Assembly (NCBI GenBank): GCA_019694215.1
Contig: JAIBCK010000023.1
Span: 1-41,146 of the forward strand
Length of the DNA stretch: 41,146 nt
Source: Thermoflexales bacterium
GTDB taxonomy: Bacteria > Chloroflexota > Anaerolineae > J036 > Brachytrichaceae
Direction of reading: 5' to 3'
Shown here: positions 16,991 through 36,132 of the stretch, in pieces
Numbering within the stretch: the stretch's first letter is position 1
Layout of the letters: each line of letters starts with the position of its first letter
Program-made: the position numbers and the translations under genes
Notes under the pieces: model-generated
Database searches by the model: none
What the model saw: the letters and a program-made list of their open reading frames with translations, nothing else
Told to the model about the DNA's origin: nothing

Positions 16991-19900
16991 CTAACGTGTA
17001 AACACCATCAGCGCGCCATCCGAGCGGCCGAACACCTCGGGGAAGTACTGTTCGCTCGCCTGGGCGGGGATGGTGTTGAACTCGCCGGCCTGGGTGACGC
17101 GCACGGTGTAGCTGTACTCGTAGGTCCCGCGCGAGAGATAGGGTGCGAAGATCGCGACGCGGTCGTCGCGCATCTCGGCCCGCACATACCAGCGCCACCA
17201 GTTGCCATACCAGCGCTCCAACCCGGCCCGCGTCGTGCTCACGCCGGTGGCGAGCTGGCTGGTCGTGGCCAGCCCGATGTCGACGGCCTCGGCGCCCGCC
17301 GGCAGCGTGTCCTCGAGCTGGACGTAGCGCAGCTCCGTCGGCGCGATCAGCGTGAGCGAGACCCGCAGTTCATCGCCCACCCGCGCCTGCGTCACGGCCG
17401 GGCACGCGATGCCCGCCGTGCAGCTCGCCAGCGTGTAGCGCCGCTGCACGATGATGCCGCGGTCGAGCGCCTGCACCGCCGACGCGGGCAGGGCCGCGCG
17501 CAGGTGCGCGGTGTAGTACAGCTTGCCATCGCCGGCGCTGCGTTGCAGGGTCAGGGTATTGGGCGTGTCACGCAGCAGCGCGGCGACCGGCGTGGTGAAG
17601 ACGCGGGTCTGGGCCAGGGTCTGCGCCGTCGCCACACCGTCACCAAGCTTGCGACCGTTGAGGAGCACGCTGTAGTCAAAGTTGGCGCGCAGCTCGCCGC
17701 TGGCGGCGGCGTAGTCGATCAGCGCCATCATCACCCAGGTGTTCTCGTAACTGCTCTTCCACGCCCCCTCGCCGTCGCGGGCCGCCATCAGCCAGCGCGC
17801 AGCGAGGGCACCCAGTGCGTTGCGCGCATCGAGGCGCGAGAGCGCGCTCAACGCCAGGGCCGTGCTGCGCGTGTCGCTGTTGAATCCCCACAGGTCAGGG
17901 GTGCGTTCTTCCCAGTGCGCGCCCGTCGCCGAGAGCTGCGCGTCGCGGGTCAGGTCCGCCAGCAGCACGGGCAGCCGGGCATCCTTGCCGTCGAGCCGCG
18001 CCACGGTCTGCGCCAACAGCGCGCGCCCGTACACCCCGAGGTTGTCGCGCGCGTCATACAGCTCGTTGACCCGCGTCTTGTCCGGCGTCCCGGCCTCGGC
18101 CAGCACATACAGCGCATAGGCCTGCTGATTGAACGCCCAGGGGCCGCGCAGCGTGTTCGTCGCGCGCACGATCTGCCGGGCGTAGGCCAGCCCGCGGTCG
18201 AGCATCGGCGCGTTGACGGCAAAGCCCGCCTGCCGGGCCCGCATCAGGGCAAAGCCCACCCACAGCGTGGTGTGCGCGTTGGTCTCCCCCTCGCGATACC
18301 AGCCCCAACCGCCGTCGGCGTGCTGTTGCGTGGCGAGCTTGGCGATCGCAGCAGGGATGACCTCCTTGAGGCGGGCCTGGGCATCGCCGGGGCGCGGGAA
18401 CTGCGCGAGCAGTTGATAGGAAAGAACGTTGGCCATCAGCCGTGAGGCCACGCCCTCGCTGCCTTCGTAGGGATATTCCTCCACGACCTGAAATCCCGCC
18501 TCGGTCGCCGCGATGAGCGAATGGTCCAGGCGCAGGCTGAGGGTGCCCTGCGTGTCGTCGAGCAGCTTCGGCAGAACGATCTTCTCCGTCCGCACGCCGC
18601 CCGCGTCCAGCGCGCCCGCTGTGCCGACGATCTCGCCGGCGCTGTAGCGCAGCACCTTGATTCCGCGGTTGGGGGCGGTGCTCAGCCGCGGCCGGCTGGC
18701 ATCCCCGTTCGCGCCCGCGGCGACGCGGAAGAGCAGATCGACCTGGCTGACATCCTGGACGCGCGCGCGCCAGGTGGCTGTGGCTTCACCGTTGGCCGGG
18801 ACCTCGACGGTGAGCTCGGCCGGCGTCTGCAGCGCAAGGCCCGCAGACTCGGCCAGCCACACCCGCGCCGAGACGGTGCTCGCGGTGTTGTTCTGCACAA
18901 CGGCGGCGAGCTCCACAAGGTCGCCGACCACGAGGAAGCGCGGTGTGACCGGGCGGATCAGCACCGGGCGCGTGGCAACGGTGTCGGTCTGGCGCTCGCC
19001 GACGCGCGTCTTCTCGTCGATGGCCACCGCGCGCACCACCCAGGTCGTCAGGTTGTCCGGAAGCGTGACGGTCACACGGGCGACGCCGTCGGCGTTTGTT
19101 TGTCCGTCGGCCTTCCAGAAGGCGGTGTCGGCGAAGGTCTCGCGGATCGGCGCGTCATCGGCGGCATCCTGGACGGAATAGTTGCTTTCGGCCGTGGCTG
19201 CGCGTGCGCCGAGTGCCGGGGCGGCGGCCGGCGCCCCCGTTGCGGCCGGCCGCGGGGGCTCTGCGCCGGCGGCGCCCATGCCCTTGGCATCCGCGGCCGC
19301 CTGCTGCTCCTCGGCCATGCGACGGTTCATCGACCAGGACAGCGTGGTGGCGGTCCCGACGCCATCCCCGCGCGGGCCGTAGAAGGCGTTGACGATGGCG
19401 TTGGCCTCGCGCGGGCGCAGGTTCAGCACGCCTTTGTCCACCACGTCGAGCGAGAAGCGCGCGGCGACGGGTGCCCCCAGCGCATCGGTGATGCGGATCT
19501 CGTAGCTGACCTGCGCGCCGGGCTGCGCGAGCGCGGGATCGGCGGTGATGTTGATGTTGAGCGTTTGCGCGACGGGTTTGACCGTCAGCTCGACCAGCCC
19601 GACCTTGAAGTCGGCCTGGTCGGCCACGCGCTCGCCCGCGCCCGTCAGCGGCTTGATCAGGACGACCGAGACGTAGATGTTCGGCGCGTGCGCGTCCGTG
19701 ATCGGCAGGCGGTAGAGGGCGGTGCCGCCATGCACCTGGATGACCTCGTGCGAGTACATCCGCCCGCGCTCGATCGTGACCAACGCAAAATGGTCCTCCG
19801 CGAACGGGGATGGAATCAGGATCTCGGCCGTGTCGCCGGCCACATACTCTGCCTTGTTCGCCACCAGGTTGATGCGGTCGCTGTCATCGCGCAGCCACGA

Positions 19901-22900
19901 GGCCGCCAGATCGCCGACGACGAAGACGAAGCGGCTGCTCTGCGCGAGGCGGCCCTGGGCGTCGCGCGCCCGCGCGACGATGCGCAGCGCACCCGACAGA
20001 TCCGTGGTGAACGTCGCCGTCGCTTCGCCATTCGCGTCGCTCGTCACGGTCTTGGTCATCAGCGGCGTGTCGATCACGTCGCTGCGCCACCGCCCGGCCT
20101 CCTCATCGTAGTGGCTCTTCCATGCGCGCTGCACCAGCACGGCTTCCACGCTCTGGCCGGCCAGGCGCTTGCCGTCCCAATCCACCACCACCAGGCCGGC
20201 CTCGATGGGCTTCCCGGCGCGCACGATGGTCCCCGGGCTGCTGACCCCGACATACAGGGCGGCCGGATGAATCAGCACGCTGCTGCGCCCGGCGATGCTC
20301 TGGCCATCGGCCCCGGTGGCGTTGCCCTCGATGGAGAAGCTGAGCGGGCCGAGCATGGGGGTGCTGTCCGCGCCACGGATCTCGGCCGAGATGGGCACGC
20401 GGAGGGTGAGCACGCCCGCGCCATCGGTGCTGCTGTCGCCGCTGGCGATCACCAGCCGGTTGCCCGCGGGCAGCGGGCGCAGCACCGTCGGCCCTGCCAT
20501 GCGCATCGGATATGGATGCCACGGGCTGTCAGCGTCCGCAAAACTGTATTGATCGAGTTGCGGCGGTGAGAACGTTGCGCTGGTCGCGACGATGTTCCAG
20601 CGCATGCGGGTGTTGGCCAGCCCGCCGCCCGCGAGATACGCTGCCGCCAGGTTTGCCTCGAGCGTTTCCCCGCGCGCATACGCCGGCCGTGCAGGGGTCA
20701 CAGTCACCTCGTATTCCGGGGCGCGATAGGCGGAGATCTGAAACGCCGCCGTGGCAACCTGATCCTGGTTGTGCTGAACGCTCACGCTCACCTGGCCGAG
20801 CGCCACATCGGTGGGCAGCACGAGCTCGGCATCGAAGCCGCCCTGGTCATCGAGTTTGAGGGTGGTGTTCATCAGTTGGCCGCGTGGGCCAAAGGCCGCC
20901 ACGATCACCGACTGATTGGCCGCGAGCGGCGAGTAGCGCCCGTCGTCGTCGTTGCGCAGCACGCCGCGCATCCGCACGGTCTGGCCGGGCCGGTAGATGG
21001 CGCGGTCGGTGTAGAGATGGCCCATCACCTGGCCGCCACCGTTCCCCCGGTCATAGCTCAGGCCAAAGTCATATGGCGCGATGCCACCGCTGCTGTTGGC
21101 CAGGACGATGCCGAAGGGCTGCGCGCTGAGCACCCAGCTCGCTCCCCGGGCCTGCGCATCGGTGTTCAACGGGAAGCGCGCCACCCCATCTTTTCCCGTT
21201 GTGCTCCGGGTGACATCGAAGGTTGTGGTGCCCCCGCGCGGGTCGTAGCGCTCGGTGACGGTCTGAAGGGCCACGTCGGCCAGCGGCTTGCCGGTCTTGA
21301 GGTCCGTGGCCCAGACCAACCCTTCGTCGCTGCCGAACTTGGCGGTGAGGTTGATCTCCGTGACAAAGAAGACGGCGAAGAACGGCGCGCCGCGATTGGC
21401 TTTCTCCAGCTCCGGAGCCGACATCGTGAGGAGATAGGTGCCGGGCTTGAGCCGGCCATCGCCCTCGCCGAGGGTGATGATCGTGCGTGAGACCTGGTTG
21501 AGGGCGCCCTCCGGCTTGACCTGCCACTGACGCACGGGTGTGCCGGGCGGTTTGGTCTGCATGTCAAAGCCTCTGCCGCTCAGGCTCAGCAGCTCGTCGC
21601 TGGAGATGGCGCGCAGCGCCAGGTTGAGGACGCTGACGTTGTTGCTGCTCGCCGTGACGCGCACCGGGAGATGGGCGTCGAAGCTGGCCGGGAGGCCGCC
21701 GATGTTCAGCGATGCGGCGGGGGGCAGGGCCGCCGTGCTGAAGGTGAAGCGCGTGAGCTCGGCGATGGTGTTGCCCCAACGGTCACTCACGCCGGGCAGG
21801 AGCTCGACGGTGTAGTCGCTCGAAGGGGACAGCGCAGCTTGAACGTAGAAGGAGTTGTTGTATTCGTTGTAACCGCTGAAGGCGCGGGTGAGCGAGATGG
21901 CCGGCGAGAAGCGCAGCCGCGCCCACACCGAGGCCGGATCGACCGGGGCCGTGAACTGGATGGTGATGCCGCCGTAGGGATAGGCATCCTTTTGACCGTT
22001 TTGCGGTGACGTGCCCTTGACCCGCGGGCGCGGATACGTCTTGAAGCCGGAGACCCATTGCTCGCGCGAGCCCAGGCCGCCGGATGCGCTCTTGATGCCC
22101 GCGGCAACCTTGACCGTGTAGGCGGCGTCGAAGTCCAGCCGCGCCGTTGGCGTGAAGGTCAGGGTGGCGCTGAGCACGCTGGCCGTGCCTGCGACGGTCC
22201 CGCCGCGGGCGTCCTGCAGCGCGAAGGCGGCGCGGGCGCTTTCGGCGTCGACGTCCTGGTTGAAGCGCACCCTGATGACGCTGTCCACCGGCACAGGCGT
22301 GGTGGCCTGCGGGTCGGGGCTGACGGAGAGGACGCGCGGGGCCGCCGTCGAGAACGACCAGCTGAAGGCGCCGGCAATGGGGTTGCCATCCACGTCCTTG
22401 AGCGCCCCGTCCAGCGTCAGGCGAAATTGCGTGCCGCCCGGGAGCGGCCGCGCAGGACGGAAGACCAGGATCGACGTGTTGACCCATTCCGTTGTTCCCT
22501 CGATGGCCGGCTCGATCGTGAGTGGCCGGGGCAGCTCGGGCGCGCCGACGCCGCGCGAGACCACCGTGAGCGGGACGACGGGTCGATTGAACAGGATCGT
22601 GACGGGCACCTCGGGGGTCACATCGGTTGTGCCGTCGGCGGGGATGACCTGGGCGACCTGCAAGGGGTCGCGCATGCGGTAGCGGGCGATGAAGGGCTCG
22701 CGCAGCGGCGCGCCGTCGGCGGCCCGCGCCGACTGGGCCACGCCCACATCGATCACGCCGGAGGCCGGGGTTGTCTCGGCCGGCTTGAACACCACCTTGC
22801 GGCCGCCATCGCTCCAGACAAAGCTGCCGGCCGTGGCCGGTTGCGTCTTGAAGGCGGCCTCGACCGAGGCCGTGTTCATGGCCCGGTCAAAGGTCAGGGT

Positions 22901-23284
22901 GATGGCGGAGCCGGGGGTCAGGCGTTCGCCGGCCGCCGGCAGCTGGTCGAGGACGCGCGCGGCGTCACCGGACACGGGTGAATAGGGCAGGTTGAGGCGC
23001 GGGGGCTCGGGCATGGGGGCCGGCGGCGCAACCGGTGTGCTGACCCGACTGCCGGCGGGAGGCTGCCCGGGCGAGACGCTCCCCGGCCGACCGGTGACCG
23101 CTGGACCATTGTCGATGCCACCCGAGGGCACGTAGACGGGGGCGGCCACCGTCGCGGTAGCCGGTGGGGCAGTTGGTCCGGGGGCAGGGCGCGTCGGCGT
23201 GGCCGAGGAGGGTGTGCTGGGATTGCAGGCTCCCAGAATCAGTGCGGCGAGCAGGCCCGCGGCGGGCAGTCGATTTCGGTCCAT
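16991..23284 (-). CDS. Bacterial alpha-2-macroglobulin-like lipoprotein lacking the thioester motif
   Basis: The 2,097-residue protein starts with a lipoprotein signal (LILGAC, C20) and a Pro/Thr-rich stalk up to about residue 95. SbsA-type Ig domains come first (for example TPGSAITLTFDRAMNTASV), then macroglobulin domains. The A2M core signature is present (FADTAFWKADGQTNADGVAR, then TLPDNLTTWVVRAVA), then a helical thioester-type domain and a C-terminal receptor-like domain (EDTLPAGAEAVDIG). Bacterial macroglobulins trap proteases, protecting the envelope. The site that reads YPYGCLEQ in thioester forms reads YPYEGSEG here (Y1606-G1611), so no thioester can form. A GAGGTGA Shine-Dalgarno precedes ATG 23284. 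No pbpC gene, its frequent partner, is adjacent. Confidence 0.93.
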   Translation of the reverse strand: MDRNRLPAAGLLAALILGACNPSTPSSATPTRPAPGPTAPPATATVAAPVYVPSGGIDNGPAVTGRPGSVSPGQPPAGSRVSTPVAPPAPMPEPPRLNLPYSPVSGDAARVLDQLPAAGERLTPGSAITLTFDRAMNTASVEAAFKTQPATAGSFVWSDGGRKVVFKPAETTPASGVIDVGVAQSARAADGAPLREPFIARYRMRDPLQVAQVIPADGTTDVTPEVPVTILFNRPVVPLTVVSRGVGAPELPRPLTIEPAIEGTTEWVNTSILVFRPARPLPGGTQFRLTLDGALKDVDGNPIAGAFSWSFSTAAPRVLSVSPDPQATTPVPVDSVIRVRFNQDVDAESARAAFALQDARGGTVAGTASVLSATLTFTPTARLDFDAAYTVKVAAGIKSASGGLGSREQWVSGFKTYPRPRVKGTSPQNGQKDAYPYGGITIQFTAPVDPASVWARLRFSPAISLTRAFSGYNEYNNSFYVQAALSPSSDYTVELLPGVSDRWGNTIAELTRFTFSTAALPPAASLNIGGLPASFDAHLPVRVTASSNNVSVLNLALRAISSDELLSLSGRGFDMQTKPPGTPVRQWQVKPEGALNQVSRTIITLGEGDGRLKPGTYLLTMSAPELEKANRGAPFFAVFFVTEINLTAKFGSDEGLVWATDLKTGKPLADVALQTVTERYDPRGGTTTFDVTRSTTGKDGVARFPLNTDAQARGASWVLSAQPFGIVLANSSGGIAPYDFGLSYDRGNGGGQVMGHLYTDRAIYRPGQTVRMRGVLRNDDDGRYSPLAANQSVIVAAFGPRGQLMNTTLKLDDQGGFDAELVLPTDVALGQVSVSVQHNQDQVATAAFQISAYRAPEYEVTVTPARPAYARGETLEANLAAAYLAGGGLANTRMRWNIVATSATFSPPQLDQYSFADADSPWHPYPMRMAGPTVLRPLPAGNRLVIASGDSSTDGAGVLTLRVPISAEIRGADSTPMLGPLSFSIEGNATGADGQSIAGRSSVLIHPAALYVGVSSPGTIVRAGKPIEAGLVVVDWDGKRLAGQSVEAVLVQRAWKSHYDEEAGRWRSDVIDTPLMTKTVTSDANGEATATFTTDLSGALRIVARARDAQGRLAQSSRFVFVVGDLAASWLRDDSDRINLVANKAEYVAGDTAEILIPSPFAEDHFALVTIERGRMYSHEVIQVHGGTALYRLPITDAHAPNIYVSVVLIKPLTGAGERVADQADFKVGLVELTVKPVAQTLNINITADPALAQPGAQVSYEIRITDALGAPVAARFSLDVVDKGVLNLRPREANAIVNAFYGPRGDGVGTATTLSWSMNRRMAEEQQAAADAKGMGAAGAEPPRPAATGAPAAAPALGARAATAESNYSVQDAADDAPIRETFADTAFWKADGQTNADGVARVTVTLPDNLTTWVVRAVAIDEKTRVGERQTDTVATRPVLIRPVTPRFLVVGDLVELAAVVQNNTASTVSARVWLAESAGLALQTPAELTVEVPANGEATATWRARVQDVSQVDLLFRVAAGANGDASRPRLSTAPNRGIKVLRYSAGEIVGTAGALDAGGVRTEKIVLPKLLDDTQGTLSLRLDHSLIAATEAGFQVVEEYPYEGSEGVASRLMANVLSYQLLAQFPRPGDAQARLKEVIPAAIAKLATQQHADGGWGWYREGETNAHTTLWVGFALMRARQAGFAVNAPMLDRGLAYARQIVRATNTLRGPWAFNQQAYALYVLAEAGTPDKTRVNELYDARDNLGVYGRALLAQTVARLDGKDARLPVLLADLTRDAQLSATGAHWEERTPDLWGFNSDTRSTALALSALSRLDARNALGALAARWLMAARDGEGAWKSSYENTWVMMALIDYAAASGELRANFDYSVLLNGRKLGDGVATAQTLAQTRVFTTPVAALLRDTPNTLTLQRSAGDGKLYYTAHLRAALPASAVQALDRGIIVQRRYTLASCTAGIACPAVTQARVGDELRVSLTLIAPTELRYVQLEDTLPAGAEAVDIGLATTSQLATGVSTTRAGLERWYGNWWRWYVRAEMRDDRVAIFAPYLSRGTYEYSYTVRVTQAGEFNTIPAQASEQYFPEVFGRSDGALMVFTR

Positions 23285-31130: not shown

Positions 31131-33284
31131 TTGGCGAAGCTGACCCTGACTGGCCGCGCGCGGGTGTTCGCCCTGATCGCCATCGGGGTGGGCGCATTTC
31201 TGGGCCTGACGCTCGCCCAGCTCTCGCGATTCTTCATCGGCGGGGGCGAGGCCTTTTCGACCGGGACCGTGGCCCCGCGCGATGTGCGGGCGCCCACGCG
31301 GGTGTCCATCGTCAATGACACCCTGACCCGCAACCAGCGCGATGCCGCCGAGGCCAATGTCGCGCCGATCTACTCGCCGCCGGACGCCCAGGTGGCGCGC
31401 AAGCAGCTTGCCACCGCGCGTGAGACGCTGGACCGCATCGCCATCATCCGCGCTGACAACACCCAGAGCGACACGAGCAAGCTGCGGACGCTGCTGGCCG
31501 TCCCGGCGGTCAAGATCGAGGAGCCGATCGCGCGGGTGATCCTGCGCGTGTCCGATCTGTCCTGGACGCGCATGGACGCGCAGGTCATCACGCTGCTCGA
31601 TCAGAACCTGCGCGAGCCCATCCGGCCGGAGGGGCTGGACATCGTGCGCGCCCGGCTGCCGGGCCAGGTCAGCCTGAGCTTCTCGGCCGACGAGACTGCG
31701 GTGATCAGCGCGCTCGGGGCGGCGCTGCTGGCGCCCAACGTCAGCTTTGATGCGGCCGCCACCGATGCGGCCAAGCGCAATGCCCGCGCCGCCGTCCAGC
31801 CCGTTCAGCTGACCTACGAGGCCAGCCAGATCATCATCCGCAGCGGCCAGGTGGTGACAGCGGCGGAGCTCGAAACGCTGGACAAGCTCAACCTTCGGCG
31901 CAGCGCGATGACCTGGCTGGATGCGCTCAACGCGCTGGCGCTGGCGGCGCTGGCGGTGGTGACGATCGGGCTGTCCATGTGGCGGCAGCACTTCGGTCAG
32001 ACGCATGAACTTCTGCACCGCCCGCTCCGCGAGAGCGGACTAAGCGCGCTGTTGATCGTCGTGGCGGTGGTGCTGGGGCGCTGGTTGCTGCCCGGGCACG
32101 GCTTTGTGCCGTATCTCGCGCCCATGCTCGCAGTTGGCATCGTGGTGGCGGCCTGGTCGGGCGTGCTGGCGGGTGCCGCGGCCGCGGCGACCACCGGCGC
32201 GCTGATCGGGATCGGGCTGGACCGGCCGATCGAGTTCGCCGCGCTGTATGCCTGCGGGGGCGTGATCGCCACCCTGAGCATCCGGCGCTCCGAGCGCGTG
32301 GGCGACTTCGTCCGCGCGGGGATCTGGGGCTTCCTCGCCCAACTCGGCGTGATCATCGCCTTTCACGCGATCGGGTTTCAGGCCAGCGATCTGGCGCAGA
32401 TCGCGCTGTATATCGTTGGCGCGTTTGCCGCCTGCATCATCGCGGCCGCGCTCGCCCTCGCGATTCTGTATCTGGCCGGGGCCGTCTTTGATTTGCCCAG
32501 CGCCATCCACATGAACGAGCTGTCCCGGCCGTCGCACCCCCTGTTGCGGCAGATGCTGAGCCGCGCGCCGGGGACGTATCACCACAGCCTGATGGTGGCC
32601 AATCTCGCCGAGCACGCCGCGGACCGCATCGGCGCCGACGCCCTGCTCACCCGCGTGGGCGCGTACTACCACGACATCGGCAAGACCGCGCACCCGTACT
32701 TCTTCATCGAGAACCAGCTTGATCGGGACCGCAACCCGCATAGTGAGATCGATCCGCTGACCAGCGCGCGCATCCTGCACAACCACGTGCTCGACGGCAT
32801 GCAGATGGCGCGCGAGCGGCGGCTGCCCTCCAGCATTCGCGCCTTCATCGCCGAGCATCACGGAACGATGGTGACGCGCTCGGCCTACGCGCGGGCGCAG
32901 AAGGACAGCGCGACGCCGGTTGAAGAAGGCCCCTTCCGATATCCGGGCCCGGTTCCGCAGCGCCGCGAGACGGCCCTGCTGATGCTGGCGGACGCCAGCG
33001 AGGCCACGGTGCGGGCGCTGCGGCCAACCAGCCCCGAGGAGATGGACCAGATCGTCCGCCGCGTCATTGCCGAGCGCGTGACGGACCATCAGCTCGACGA
33101 CAGCGGCCTGACGCTGCGCGACCTCGACCGGGTGGCGCTTTCGTTTGTTGAGACCCTGCGCGGCGCGTATCATCCGCGCATCGACTATCCACAACTCAGT
33201 GGGCCGTCGCCTGCACCGGCGAGCGTCCCCCCTCCGCCGGCCGAGATCACCCCGCCTCTCGTGGGCGGGCGCGATCAGGTGTAA
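31131..33284 (+). CDS. pgpH: 7TM-HD membrane phosphohydrolase (PgpH/YqfF-like)
   Basis: The 717-residue protein fits PgpH, a membrane phosphodiesterase that degrades c-di-AMP in other bacteria. A first membrane segment near residues 10-28 is followed by an extracellular 7TMR-HDED domain (about 40-260). About six more helices (264-475) and a cytoplasmic HD domain come next. HD residues include H484/H485 (TYHHSLMVANLAEHAA), H514-D515 (YYHDIGKTAHPYFFIENQ) and a late EHHG motif. The start is TTG 31131 with GAGGGG upstream. In many genomes the gene lies before ybeY, as here. c-di-AMP as substrate is inferred from the family. Confidence 0.93.
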   Translation: MAKLTLTGRARVFALIAIGVGAFLGLTLAQLSRFFIGGGEAFSTGTVAPRDVRAPTRVSIVNDTLTRNQRDAAEANVAPIYSPPDAQVARKQLATARETLDRIAIIRADNTQSDTSKLRTLLAVPAVKIEEPIARVILRVSDLSWTRMDAQVITLLDQNLREPIRPEGLDIVRARLPGQVSLSFSADETAVISALGAALLAPNVSFDAAATDAAKRNARAAVQPVQLTYEASQIIIRSGQVVTAAELETLDKLNLRRSAMTWLDALNALALAALAVVTIGLSMWRQHFGQTHELLHRPLRESGLSALLIVVAVVLGRWLLPGHGFVPYLAPMLAVGIVVAAWSGVLAGAAAAATTGALIGIGLDRPIEFAALYACGGVIATLSIRRSERVGDFVRAGIWGFLAQLGVIIAFHAIGFQASDLAQIALYIVGAFAACIIAAALALAILYLAGAVFDLPSAIHMNELSRPSHPLLRQMLSRAPGTYHHSLMVANLAEHAADRIGADALLTRVGAYYHDIGKTAHPYFFIENQLDRDRNPHSEIDPLTSARILHNHVLDGMQMARERRLPSSIRAFIAEHHGTMVTRSAYARAQKDSATPVEEGPFRYPGPVPQRRETALLMLADASEATVRALRPTSPEEMDQIVRRVIAERVTDHQLDDSGLTLRDLDRVALSFVETLRGAYHPRIDYPQLSGPSPAPASVPPPPAEITPPLVGGRDQV

Positions 33285-33296
33285 GCCGACCAAATC

Positions 33297-33845
33297 ATGC
33301 CCAATTCAGCCCGCCTTACCATCAGTGTCAAGTCCAAGCGTGGTCACGCCGTGCCCGGCCGGGTGGGCCTGGTGCGCAGGGCCGCACGCGCCGCTTTTGC
33401 CGCCGGCCTGCGCCGGCTGGATGGCAAGGTGCCCGTGCCGGGCGAGTACTCGCTGACCGTGCGGTTGAGCGACGACGCCGAGCTGCAGGTGCTCAACCTG
33501 CGCTACCGCAAGCTGGACAAGCCGACGGATGTGCTGTCGTTCGGTGGGGCGGGCTGGGAGGATGGCGCACTGGCACCGGCGCAGATCGGGCTGACCGACG
33601 CCGAGCTGCGCTACCTGGGTGATCTGGTAATCTCGATGGACCGTTGTGCCGCGCAGGCCGAAAGGGCCGCCCATTCTTTCGAGGCCGAGCTCTCGCTGCT
33701 GGTGGTGCACGGTGTGCTGCACCTGCTGGGGTATGACCACGAGTCGCGCTCCAGCAAGACGGCGATGTGGACGGCGCAGCAGAAAGCGTTGGGCGATCTG
33801 GACCTGCTCATGCCCACGACCGCCCACCCCGAGCGCCTGCACTGA
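33297..33845 (+). CDS. ybeY: Endoribonuclease YbeY (16S rRNA maturation)
   Basis: This 182-residue zinc-dependent RNase takes part in 16S rRNA 3'-end processing and ribosome quality control. The family motif H-x3-H-x5-H is seen at H138, H142 and H148 (VVHGVLHLLGYDHE). The substrate-site block KPTDVLSFG is also present. It follows pgpH by 12 bp. The stop lies 7 bp from the stop of the convergent DsbA-like gene. Confidence 0.95.
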   Translation: MPNSARLTISVKSKRGHAVPGRVGLVRRAARAAFAAGLRRLDGKVPVPGEYSLTVRLSDDAELQVLNLRYRKLDKPTDVLSFGGAGWEDGALAPAQIGLTDAELRYLGDLVISMDRCAAQAERAAHSFEAELSLLVVHGVLHLLGYDHESRSSKTAMWTAQQKALGDLDLLMPTTAHPERLH

Positions 33846-33852
33846 TTGACGG

Positions 33853-34482
33853 CTAGGCCGTTTCGTCCTCGTCGGAGGCTGCCGCCACTTTCTCGACCGC
33901 GGCGGCGAGCGTGGCATACGGCTGCGCGCCCATGACGAGATAACGTTCGTTCAACACCAGCGCCGGAACACCGGACAACCCGTATTCCGCCGCCTGGGCG
34001 ACATCGGCGTCCACCGCTGCGACGGCGCCGGCATCCGCGAGGGCGGCCTCGAATTCGACCACCGGCAGGCCGCATGTCGCCCACAGCCGGCGCAACACCT
34101 CCGGATTGGACAGGTCCTCGCCCTCCAGCCAGTAGGCGTTCTGCGCCTGATCGTGAAAGGCCTCGCCAGCCCCGCGCGCTTCGGCGGCCTTCTCCAGCAC
34201 CAGTGCTGCGCGCGAGGAGATTCCAAAGGGGCCGGGCTTGAGCGTGAGCCCGGTATCGCGTCGAACGCGCTCGGTGAAGGCGGGGCGACCGGCCTCGATG
34301 CGGGCGCGATGTTCGGGCGACATCGGCGGTGCGCCGGCCGGACGCAATTCATAGGAACGCCAACGCACGTCGACGCCGTGGCTGCCCTGGAGCTTCTTCA
34401 AACTGAAGAAGACGAGAAAGCAGTATGGTCAGACGAAATCGGACCAGACGTCGATGCGGACGGGTTTGGTGCTCTCAGGCAT
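33853..34482 (-). CDS. DsbA/FrnE-like thiol oxidoreductase, probable selenoprotein (U18-P-Y-C21)
   Basis: The C-terminal 180 residues match the FrnE branch of the DsbA family (thioredoxin fold with a helical insert): VRWRSYELRPAGAPPMSPEH and the cis-Pro loop GVPALVLNERYLVMGAQPY. Alone they lack the first strand and the active site. Reading upstream in the same frame restores MPESTKPVRIDVWSDFV, then TGA (34429-34431), then PYCFLVFFSL. TGA stands where the first Cys of CxxC is expected, giving a 209-residue protein with U18-P-Y-C21. A hairpin of bacterial SECIS type (34393-34411) follows. A TAGACT box 8 nt before ATG 34482 supports that start. A nonsense mutation is the alternative. Selenocysteine genes selA-selD are not in this window. 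Confidence 0.8.
34393..34411 (-). promoter_or_regulatory. Candidate bacterial SECIS element
   Basis: In the mRNA an 8-bp perfect stem CTTCTTCA / TGAAGAAG with a GUU loop starts 17 nt after the in-frame UGA; 25 nt separate the UGA from the loop. A short apical loop beginning with G, at this distance, matches what is known of bacterial SECIS hairpins recognised by SelB. Confidence 0.75.
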
Positions 34483-34490
34483 GGGGTCGC

Positions 34491-34496
34491 AGTCTA
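34491..34496 (-). promoter_or_regulatory. -10 box of a likely leaderless promoter (selenoprotein candidate)
   Basis: On the minus strand TAGACT ends 8 nt before ATG 34482 and overlaps the stop codon of the VOC gene. It supports transcription and translation starting upstream of the in-frame TGA. Confidence 0.45.
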
Positions 34497-35000
34497 GCCT
34501 GCTTCGGCCAGCAGGTCGTCCAGATCGAGCGGACGGGTATACATCGTCAGCGCGCCATCGGGCTGGCGCGGCCAGCGCTCGCGCGGGCGGTCCCAGTACA
34601 GCTCGATGCCGTTGTCATCGGGGTCGCGCAGGTAAAGCGCCTCGCTCACGCCGTGGTCGGCTGCGCCGTCGATCGCCCAGCCGTGTTCGATCAGGCGTTT
34701 GATTGCGATGGCCAGATCCCGCCGCTGCGGATACAGCACGGCGATGTGATACAGCCCGGTGGTGCCCGGTGCGGGCGGCGAGCCGTTGGCGCTCTCCCAG
34801 GTGTTCAGCCCGATGTGGTGGTGATAGCCGCCTGCCGAGACAAAGGCGACGCGCTTGCCATCACTGAGCAGCAGGTCGAAGCCGAGTAGCCCAACGTAAA
34901 AATCAAGGGCGCGCGGGATGTTGGACACCTTGAGGTGGACGTGGCCGATCGAGGCTCCGGCGGGGATGCGATACGGGGCGGTGCTTTCCGGGTTTGTCAT
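34494..35000 (-). CDS. VOC-family (glyoxalase/extradiol dioxygenase-like) protein
   Basis: The 168-residue protein has the paired beta-alpha-beta-beta-beta units of the vicinal oxygen chelate fold. Likely metal ligands are H22 (GHVHLKVS), H85 (LYHIAV) and E133 (GIELYWDRP). The closing YLRDPDDNGIELYWDRP is characteristic of catechol 2,3-dioxygenase-like members. Members bind Fe, Mn or Zn and act on glyoxal adducts, catechols or antibiotics; the substrate is unknown. It follows the FMN reductase by 5 bp and probably shares its transcript. Confidence 0.88.
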   Translation of the reverse strand: MTNPESTAPYRIPAGASIGHVHLKVSNIPRALDFYVGLLGFDLLLSDGKRVAFVSAGGYHHHIGLNTWESANGSPPAPGTTGLYHIAVLYPQRRDLAIAIKRLIEHGWAIDGAADHGVSEALYLRDPDDNGIELYWDRPRERWPRQPDGALTMYTRPLDLDDLLAEAG

Positions 35001-35005
35001 AGCGT

Positions 35006-35548
35006 TCAGGCGAGGCGTTGCGTCCAGGCGGCGAGCGCCTGGACATAGGCGGCGACCGCGTCTCGTGTGGCGGTGTCGGTCAGGTTGCCCTGCGCGTCGA
35101 ACTTGCTGGCGGCCTGATCGACATACAGCTCCGGCCGGGTCATCATCAGCATGCCCATGCCGTGCCCGATCTGACGCAGCTGGAGCTGCGCGCGCAGCCC
35201 ACCAAAACGGCCACCTGCGCTGATGATGCCGACCGGCTTGCCGGAGAAGGGCTGCTCGCGGGTTGGACGCGAGGCCCAGTCCAACGCATTTTTGAGCACA
35301 CCGGATACGGCGTAGTTGTATTCCGGGGTGGCGATGAGCACGCCGTCGGCGTCAGCCACGGCCCGTTTGAAAGCGCGCACTGCCTCTGGTGGGTTGCCTT
35401 CGAGGTCCTGGTTGAAGAGAGGGATACCCTCAAGCAGGTGAATTGTGACAGTTATGCCATCGCCCGCGGCATCGCGCGCCGCGCGCAGCAGGCCGTGATT
35501 CCACGACGCCTTGCGCAGGCTGCCCGGGAGGGCGAGGAGGCGGATCAT
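35006..35548 (-). CDS. NADPH-dependent FMN reductase (flavodoxin fold)
   Basis: The 180-residue protein shows the flavodoxin-like FMN reductase pattern. The phosphate loop GSLRKASWNHGLLRAA comes first, then ATPEYNYAVSGVLKNALDW, where the isoalloxazine binds, and PVGIISAGGRFGG. Relatives reduce FMN, quinones, chromate or azo dyes with NADPH. The length is typical. ATG 35548 has TAAAAT 6 nt upstream. It leads a minus-strand set with the VOC gene and lies before the DsbA-like gene, in a redox neighbourhood. Confidence 0.93.
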   Translation of the reverse strand: MIRLLALPGSLRKASWNHGLLRAARDAAGDGITVTIHLLEGIPLFNQDLEGNPPEAVRAFKRAVADADGVLIATPEYNYAVSGVLKNALDWASRPTREQPFSGKPVGIISAGGRFGGLRAQLQLRQIGHGMGMLMMTRPELYVDQAASKFDAQGNLTDTATRDAVAAYVQALAAWTQRLA

Positions 35549-35607: not shown

Positions 35608-36132
35608 TCAGGCCTGCTTGACGATCTCGGCGTCGATGGTCAGGGTGATCTCGTCGCCGACCAGCACGCCACCCGTCTCGAGTGGCATGTTCCAGGTCAG
35701 GCCCCAGTCCCTGCGGTTGAGCTTGCCCTTGGCCTCGAAGCCGGCGCTGGTGGTGCCCCAGGGCGCCTTCGCAAGGCCGTGAAAGGTGACGTCCAGCGTG
35801 ACCGGATGCGTGACGCCCTTGATGGTGAGGTCGCCGGTCAGGCGGGCGTGTTCGCCCTTGACGCCGTCGACGCGCGTGCTCCGGAAGGTCATGCTCGGGT
35901 GGACGGCGGCTTCGAAGAAGTCGGCGCTGGCCAGGTGGCCGTCGCGCTTGGCGTCATTGGTGTTGACGCTGGCCGTCTGCACGTCCACGCTGACGCGCGT
36001 GGCCTCGGGGCGGGCCGGGTCAAACTCGACCTCACCGCTGAAGGCCTTGAACTCGCCGCGCACGGTGCTGACCATGAGGTGGCGTGCGGCGAACTGAACG
36101 CGCGTGTGCGCGGGATCGATGCTCCAAGACAT
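35608..36132 (-). CDS. YceI-family polyisoprenoid-binding-like protein
   Basis: The 174-residue protein has the YceI lipocalin-like barrel: the opening SWSIDPAHTRVQFAARHLMV, then FDPARPEATRVSVDVQTASV, SADFFEAAVHPSMTF and the late GDLTIKGVTHPVTLDV. Relatives bind isoprenoid chains; here there is no signal peptide, so this form is cytoplasmic. A good Shine-Dalgarno AAGGAG precedes ATG 36132. It diverges from a TetR gene across a region with twin palindromes, so it is probably that regulator's target. Confidence 0.93.
   Translation of the reverse strand: MSWSIDPAHTRVQFAARHLMVSTVRGEFKAFSGEVEFDPARPEATRVSVDVQTASVNTNDAKRDGHLASADFFEAAVHPSMTFRSTRVDGVKGEHARLTGDLTIKGVTHPVTLDVTFHGLAKAPWGTTSAGFEAKGKLNRRDWGLTWNMPLETGGVLVGDEITLTIDAEIVKQA

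Follow-up and report, generated by a model that had tools for sequence, protein, structure and literature searches.

The window, that is, the whole stretch of 41,146 nucleotides analyzed here, belongs to a draft assembly of 3.4 Mb in 184 contigs with a completeness of 96%. On its minus strand it harbors a predicted gene for a selenocysteine (Sec)-containing DsbA/FrnE-like protein (33853..34482), which starts with ATG at 34482 and ends with the stop codon TAG at 33853. An in-frame TGA at 34429..34431 (minus strand) occupies the first active-site cysteine position of the motif U-P-Y-C21 and is the putative codon for Sec18. With this TGA translated as U, positions 34482 to 33853 form a continuous frame of 209 amino acids with exactly one recoded codon (U18). 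The N-terminal part of the read-through protein is MPESTKPVRIDVWSDFV-U-PYCFLV..., with VRIDVWSDFV-U-PYC around the recoded codon. Mechanical calling of open reading frames (ORFs) yielded 33853..34401, a product of 182 amino acids with a TTG start that lacks strand 1 and the CxxC motif. The coordinates given in a preliminary description of this DNA were exact, and its statements that the apparent gene starts near 34401 without the first strand and CxxC, and that standard gene calling truncates the protein, agree with this 182-amino-acid ORF.

The Sec gene is immediately preceded, at a distance of 11 nt, by a gene of the glyoxalase/VOC superfamily (34494..35000, minus strand; Pfam PF00903, E 2.2e-15), and 5 nt upstream of this follows a gene for an NADPH-dependent FMN reductase (35006..35548, minus strand; PF03358, E 1.6e-42); both are probably located on the same transcript as the Sec gene. 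Still further upstream, a YceI-like gene with the same orientation (35608..36132, minus strand; PF04264, E 1.9e-55) possibly belongs to the same cluster. Downstream of the Sec gene, a gene for YbeY is found in convergent orientation; it is adjoined by a gene for a 7TM-HD phosphohydrolase-like protein of 717 amino acids (31131-33845, plus strand), and both of these genes are also located beside the Sec gene in a relative of the same genus. This relative has further kept the FMN reductase and VOC neighbors, and in three genomes of one family (f43) the VOC gene lies upstream of the Sec gene, accompanied by YceI in two of them (L145 and L146). Of 20 loci, 17 had no counterpart of the window's neighbors near the gene, save for a weak VOC match in one. 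Since the neighborhood is thus mostly unconserved, the physiological role of the protein is weakly supported. Elsewhere in the window (16991-23284, minus strand), we noted a gene for a protein of 2,097 amino acids in which bacterial alpha-2-macroglobulin domains are combined with Big_5 Ig-like repeats.

Residues 10 to 196 of the read-through protein match the Pfam family DSBA (PF01323; E 7.8e-28) with 98 bits against a gathering cutoff of 25.6. The protein hence combines two features of DsbA-like selenoproteins of form 1, a PF01323 score above the gathering score and a UxxC motif (U18-P-Y-C21). In an AlphaFold model built from an alignment of 39 homologues (mean pLDDT of 94.2), the strand at residues 9 to 14 runs directly to residue 18, and helix 1 begins at residue 19. 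Invariant motif columns in the protein alignment are S14, D15, 18, P19, and C21, with Sec read as Cys. V172-P173 is also invariant throughout; this pair presumably represents the cis-proline loop opposite the active site that is expected from a DsbA/thioredoxin-type fold. No signal peptide or lipobox was evident by inspection, and MPESTKPVRIDVW passes straight into strand 1.

The top five Foldseek matches were FrnE entries of Deinococcus radiodurans, then SCO1869. FrnE (PDB 5cnw, 5cp1, and 5co3) is both the best match in fold (E 2.1e-14, TM 0.81, 30% identity) and, in agreement with this, the best sequence match in a phmmer search against the PDB (E 2.1e-19). It differs from the window protein in having Cys in place of Sec and in its length of 260 residues compared to 209. 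Deinococcus FrnE also possesses a second redox motif, a C-terminal CX4C. This second motif is absent from the window protein, the last cysteine of which is C137, and we therefore term it FrnE-like and not FrnE. The DsbA/FrnE-like identity proposed in the preliminary description is borne out by Pfam and Foldseek; an assignment to full FrnE would not hold. Weaker matches (E of about 1e-8) were obtained to 2-hydroxychromene-2-carboxylate isomerase and kappa-class glutathione transferase, which share the same DsbA-derived fold. These enzymes work with glutathione and an active-site Ser or Cys and not with a CxxC or UxxC pair. To our knowledge, SCO1869, a DsbA-like oxidoreductase of Streptomyces coelicolor, is not a selenoprotein, and we know of no characterization of its function. 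It has the same fold (PDB 3gl5) and gives a full-length sequence match to the window protein (residues 8 to 196).

Homologues (E of 1e-12 or better) were found in about one-fifth of 396 sampled genomes, most of them with TGA. Among the 92 homologues with a readable motif, the codon at the active-site column is TGA in 66, TGC in 16, and TGT in 10, and TAA or TAG occurred in none of the 92. This alternation between TGA and Cys (26 homologues) at a single column is what the preliminary description had proposed to look for, and it places the in-frame TGA on the first active-site cysteine, as claimed there. The closest relative, which belongs to the same genus, retains the TGA at 64% protein identity, and further TGA homologues come from many families of the same class. 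A Cys homologue from an Anaerolineae (Chloroflexota) assembly that is included in the tree (see below) shows 48% identity. The window's own genome encodes a second homologue (C183, L002), an ordinary Cys protein with the motif DFQCPYC and an exported-looking N terminus. A TGA reported in the frame of this second gene terminates the neighboring upstream gene.

Were the TGA a real stop, the gene would be a decaying pseudogene or would give rise only to the 182-amino-acid product from TTG 34401, which is what standard gene calling yields (33853..34401). Such a product would be devoid of strand 1 and the redox motif; in addition, the 66 homologues share the TGA in a frame that is otherwise unbroken and conserved, and the codons ahead of the TGA show conservation at the protein level. 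The preliminary description had named further damage to the gene in close relatives as an argument against recoding; the window's copy has no other inactivating mutation, and no decay of the gene was seen in the closest relative. A real stop is thus very unlikely, and on these sequence comparisons we regard it as refuted by conservation. A sequencing or assembly error with TGC or TGT as the true codon is conceivable for a draft of 184 contigs, but the same TGA is present in many independently assembled species with 26 to 64% identity to the window protein, and a dedicated RNA element (see below) lies behind it. Because 66 of the 92 homologues, drawn from many independent assemblies, have TGA at the active-site column and the other 26 have TGC or TGT, we exclude chance and consider the probability of such an error negligible.

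Downstream of the TGA, we identified a predicted bSECIS hairpin (CTTCTTC-AGTTT-GAAGAAG; 34396..34414, minus strand) with a GUU loop closed by an A-U pair, located 25 nt past the UGA. It has a stem of 8 bp and a folding energy of -8.0 kcal/mol. In a published bSECIS model, one of the first loop positions is a G with a U after it, and the spacing is 16 to 37 nt (PMC13188914); loop G-U, spacing, stem, and folding energy of the window hairpin conform to it. An Rfam search of the window matched no family. As the window hairpin is not more stable than shuffled sequences in single-sequence folding (z of -0.63), comparative counts were used instead. These are based on a gapless alignment from the TGA of 47 Sec genes, with the register anchored at the UGA; the genes share a hairpin 25 nt downstream of the TGA with an A-GU-U/C-U loop; one gene (L053) with a hairpin outside the shared register was excluded.

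In these 47 sequences, the inner 5 bp are paired in 97.9% of cells. Changes on both sides occur in four of the five pairs and amount to 21 cells compared to 3.3 in shuffles, and the stem covariation score is 0.358 versus 0.122 in shuffles, with far lower values for all slid registers. Stem variants range from CTTCTTC/GAAGAAG in the window and ..CTCC/GGAG. in most relatives to GCTTG/CAAGC in one family. Ser in the loop is encoded by AGT in 45 of 45 cases, although AGT accounts for 9% of Ser codons in the rest of these genes, and for the Ser just before it TCC is used in 35 of 35, which indicates constraint on the RNA rather than on the protein. Pairing at the same positions is far rarer in the Cys homologues. 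A more distant branch (18 sequences) has another hairpin, located about 20 nt past the TGA with GTCGGCCAGGGTGTGGTCGAC as its typical sequence, and the shared hairpin sequence is apparently clade specific. Overall, the hairpin downstream of the TGA in Sec genes is conserved and covarying, and we count it among the evidence for the Sec reading.

We also searched the window's own genome (G000) for the Sec machinery, a check suggested in the preliminary description, and the complete set was recovered. A tRNA-Sec was detected by Rfam (68.7 bits) and by ARAGORN (tRNA-SeC, anticodon tca), together with SelB (279 bits), SelA (486 bits), and SelD (371 bits); curated cutoffs were exceeded in each of the four cases. 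The SelD gene of this genome (C60:29799-30731; L142:1300-2232) itself contains an in-frame TGA in CAGUAGKLGP, so that another selenoprotein of an established kind is predicted for it. Decoding of the UGA as another amino acid, such as Trp or Cys through a suppressor tRNA, or under a reassigned code has precedents, as UGA is reassigned in some other bacteria. Here, however, the TGA always stands in place of the redox Cys and not of a Trp, the genome encodes a complete Sec pathway, and a covarying hairpin would be superfluous under a reassigned code, so that we deem this explanation extremely unlikely.

The Sec form of the gene and the machinery also match across genomes. SelB scored above the cutoff in 56 of 68 homologue-bearing genomes. 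In seven genomes, a TGA gene was present but no match to SelB was obtained; six of the seven contain SelA and tRNA-Sec, and the missing SelB matches therefore look like gaps of draft assemblies or of the search. In the seventh (G368; 85% complete, 1,170 contigs), none of SelA, SelB, and tRNA-Sec was found. Conversely, five genomes with a homologue free of in-frame stops and without SelB also lack SelA and tRNA-Sec, all five of them; for one of these (G326), the absence of a stop was recorded and the motif itself was not read. Within a single genus (g57), one genome has the Sec form together with the machinery (G076) and another the Cys form without it (G103).

In a quick tree of the 92 proteins with modest support (27 of 89 inner branches starred), the Sec/Cys state required 8 changes compared to 22.6 in shuffles; given this support, and with most of the distant Cys homologues forming a different subfamily, the number of switches is only approximate. 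Four Cys genes are nested among Sec genes, which suggests, at the level of the sequences, replacement of Sec by Cys. Of these, L102 has lost the G of the loop (AATTT), L107 has lost the AGT loop, L052 has kept the loop with a damaged stem, and L117 has kept a hairpin. Two nested Cys homologues are found in genomes that retain SelB (G187 and G316). With SelB kept in these two genomes and a hairpin kept in L117, the coupling is not strict for either Sec loss or hairpin loss.

Taken together, four independent lines of evidence, namely, the machinery, the TGA/Cys alternation, the RNA element, and the match between trait and machinery, agree in favor of a Sec reading of the TGA, and the selenoprotein interpretation of the preliminary description is thereby supported. 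From sequence data, we are highly confident that the product of the gene is a cytosolic thiol/selenol-disulfide oxidoreductase and belongs to the DsbA/FrnE family, with Sec18 inserted at UGA via SelB and the hairpin. SelB would bind the hairpin in the mRNA and bring Sec-tRNA-Sec to the UGA. In the thioredoxin fold of the product, Sec18 and Cys21 would lie where helix 1 begins, with the V172-P173 loop (cis-Pro type) opposite. The low-pKa selenol of Sec18 could attack substrate disulfides or react with oxidants or electrophiles, and Cys21 would resolve the mixed selenosulfide. The most likely chemistry would thus be attack of Sec18 on a disulfide or oxidized substrate and resolution by Cys21, in the cytosol. 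As no signal peptide is evident and an FMN reductase/VOC/YceI cluster lies upstream, our guess is that cytosolic repair or detoxification is likelier than export-linked disulfide formation. A more specific and rather doubtful scenario combines several of these points: a cytosolic reductase detoxifying electrophiles or oxidants together with the codirectional FMN reductase, VOC, and YceI proteins, and not a disulfide-forming DsbA, in a lineage that repeatedly goes back and forth between Sec and Cys and whose recoding hairpin erodes along with these switches.

Selenoproteins of this kind were already reported from environmental bacteria, as the preliminary description had noted. In 2005, nine Sec-containing DsbA-like UxxC proteins (COG2761) were described from the Sargasso Sea (PMC1088965), followed in 2008 by 63 sequences of "DsbA 1" (pfam01323) in the GOS survey (PMC2398784). 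A survey of bacterial genomes listed 45 Sec-containing DsbA-like proteins in 41 organisms (PMC5029168), and a 2026 review includes them as "DsbA-like protein form 1" with PF01323 and UxxC (PMC13188914). One of the published members of this form is NIP15863.1. The published proteins resemble the window protein in the DsbA domain (PF01323), the UxxC motif, a Sec at the position of the first Cys as the single Sec, and a downstream bSECIS element (PMC1088965, PMC2398784, and PMC13188914). That the window protein is a further member of the family described in 2005 is well supported by this likeness in domain, motif, and bSECIS. In comparison to the published proteins, the family is here spread over one bacterial class, apparently with a clade-specific hairpin sequence.

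Standard gene calling annotates the gene without its active site, and its relatives in the class are probably affected likewise. The set represents a clean bSECIS case, as shown by covariation and frozen synonymous codons, and the nested Sec-to-Cys replacements allow the decay of the hairpin to be followed. It adds to the evidence that the disulfide chemistry of these environmental bacteria uses selenium; knowledge of Sec decoding is unchanged by it, and the family itself dates from 2005.

Further Sec genes or candidates were noted among the related sequences. A second, distinct Sec subfamily with the same fold is characterized by SDYI-UPWCYVGQGVV and a separate hairpin, which has the sequence GTCGGCCAGGGTGTGGTCGAC and lies about 20 nt past the TGA; the members of this subfamily are L028-L030, L116, L118-L121, L123-L125, L127-L130, L132, L133, and L135. 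A related UPWC gene in a Planctomycetaceae assembly (L053:3340-3957) is followed by a hairpin unlike the shared one. Finally, a related gene with a DsbA fold (L031; G032:C1:1458085-1458717, minus strand) contains an in-frame TGA in DVLUVWCF, and its U-V-W-C in place of U-P-x-C is possibly a further Sec variant.
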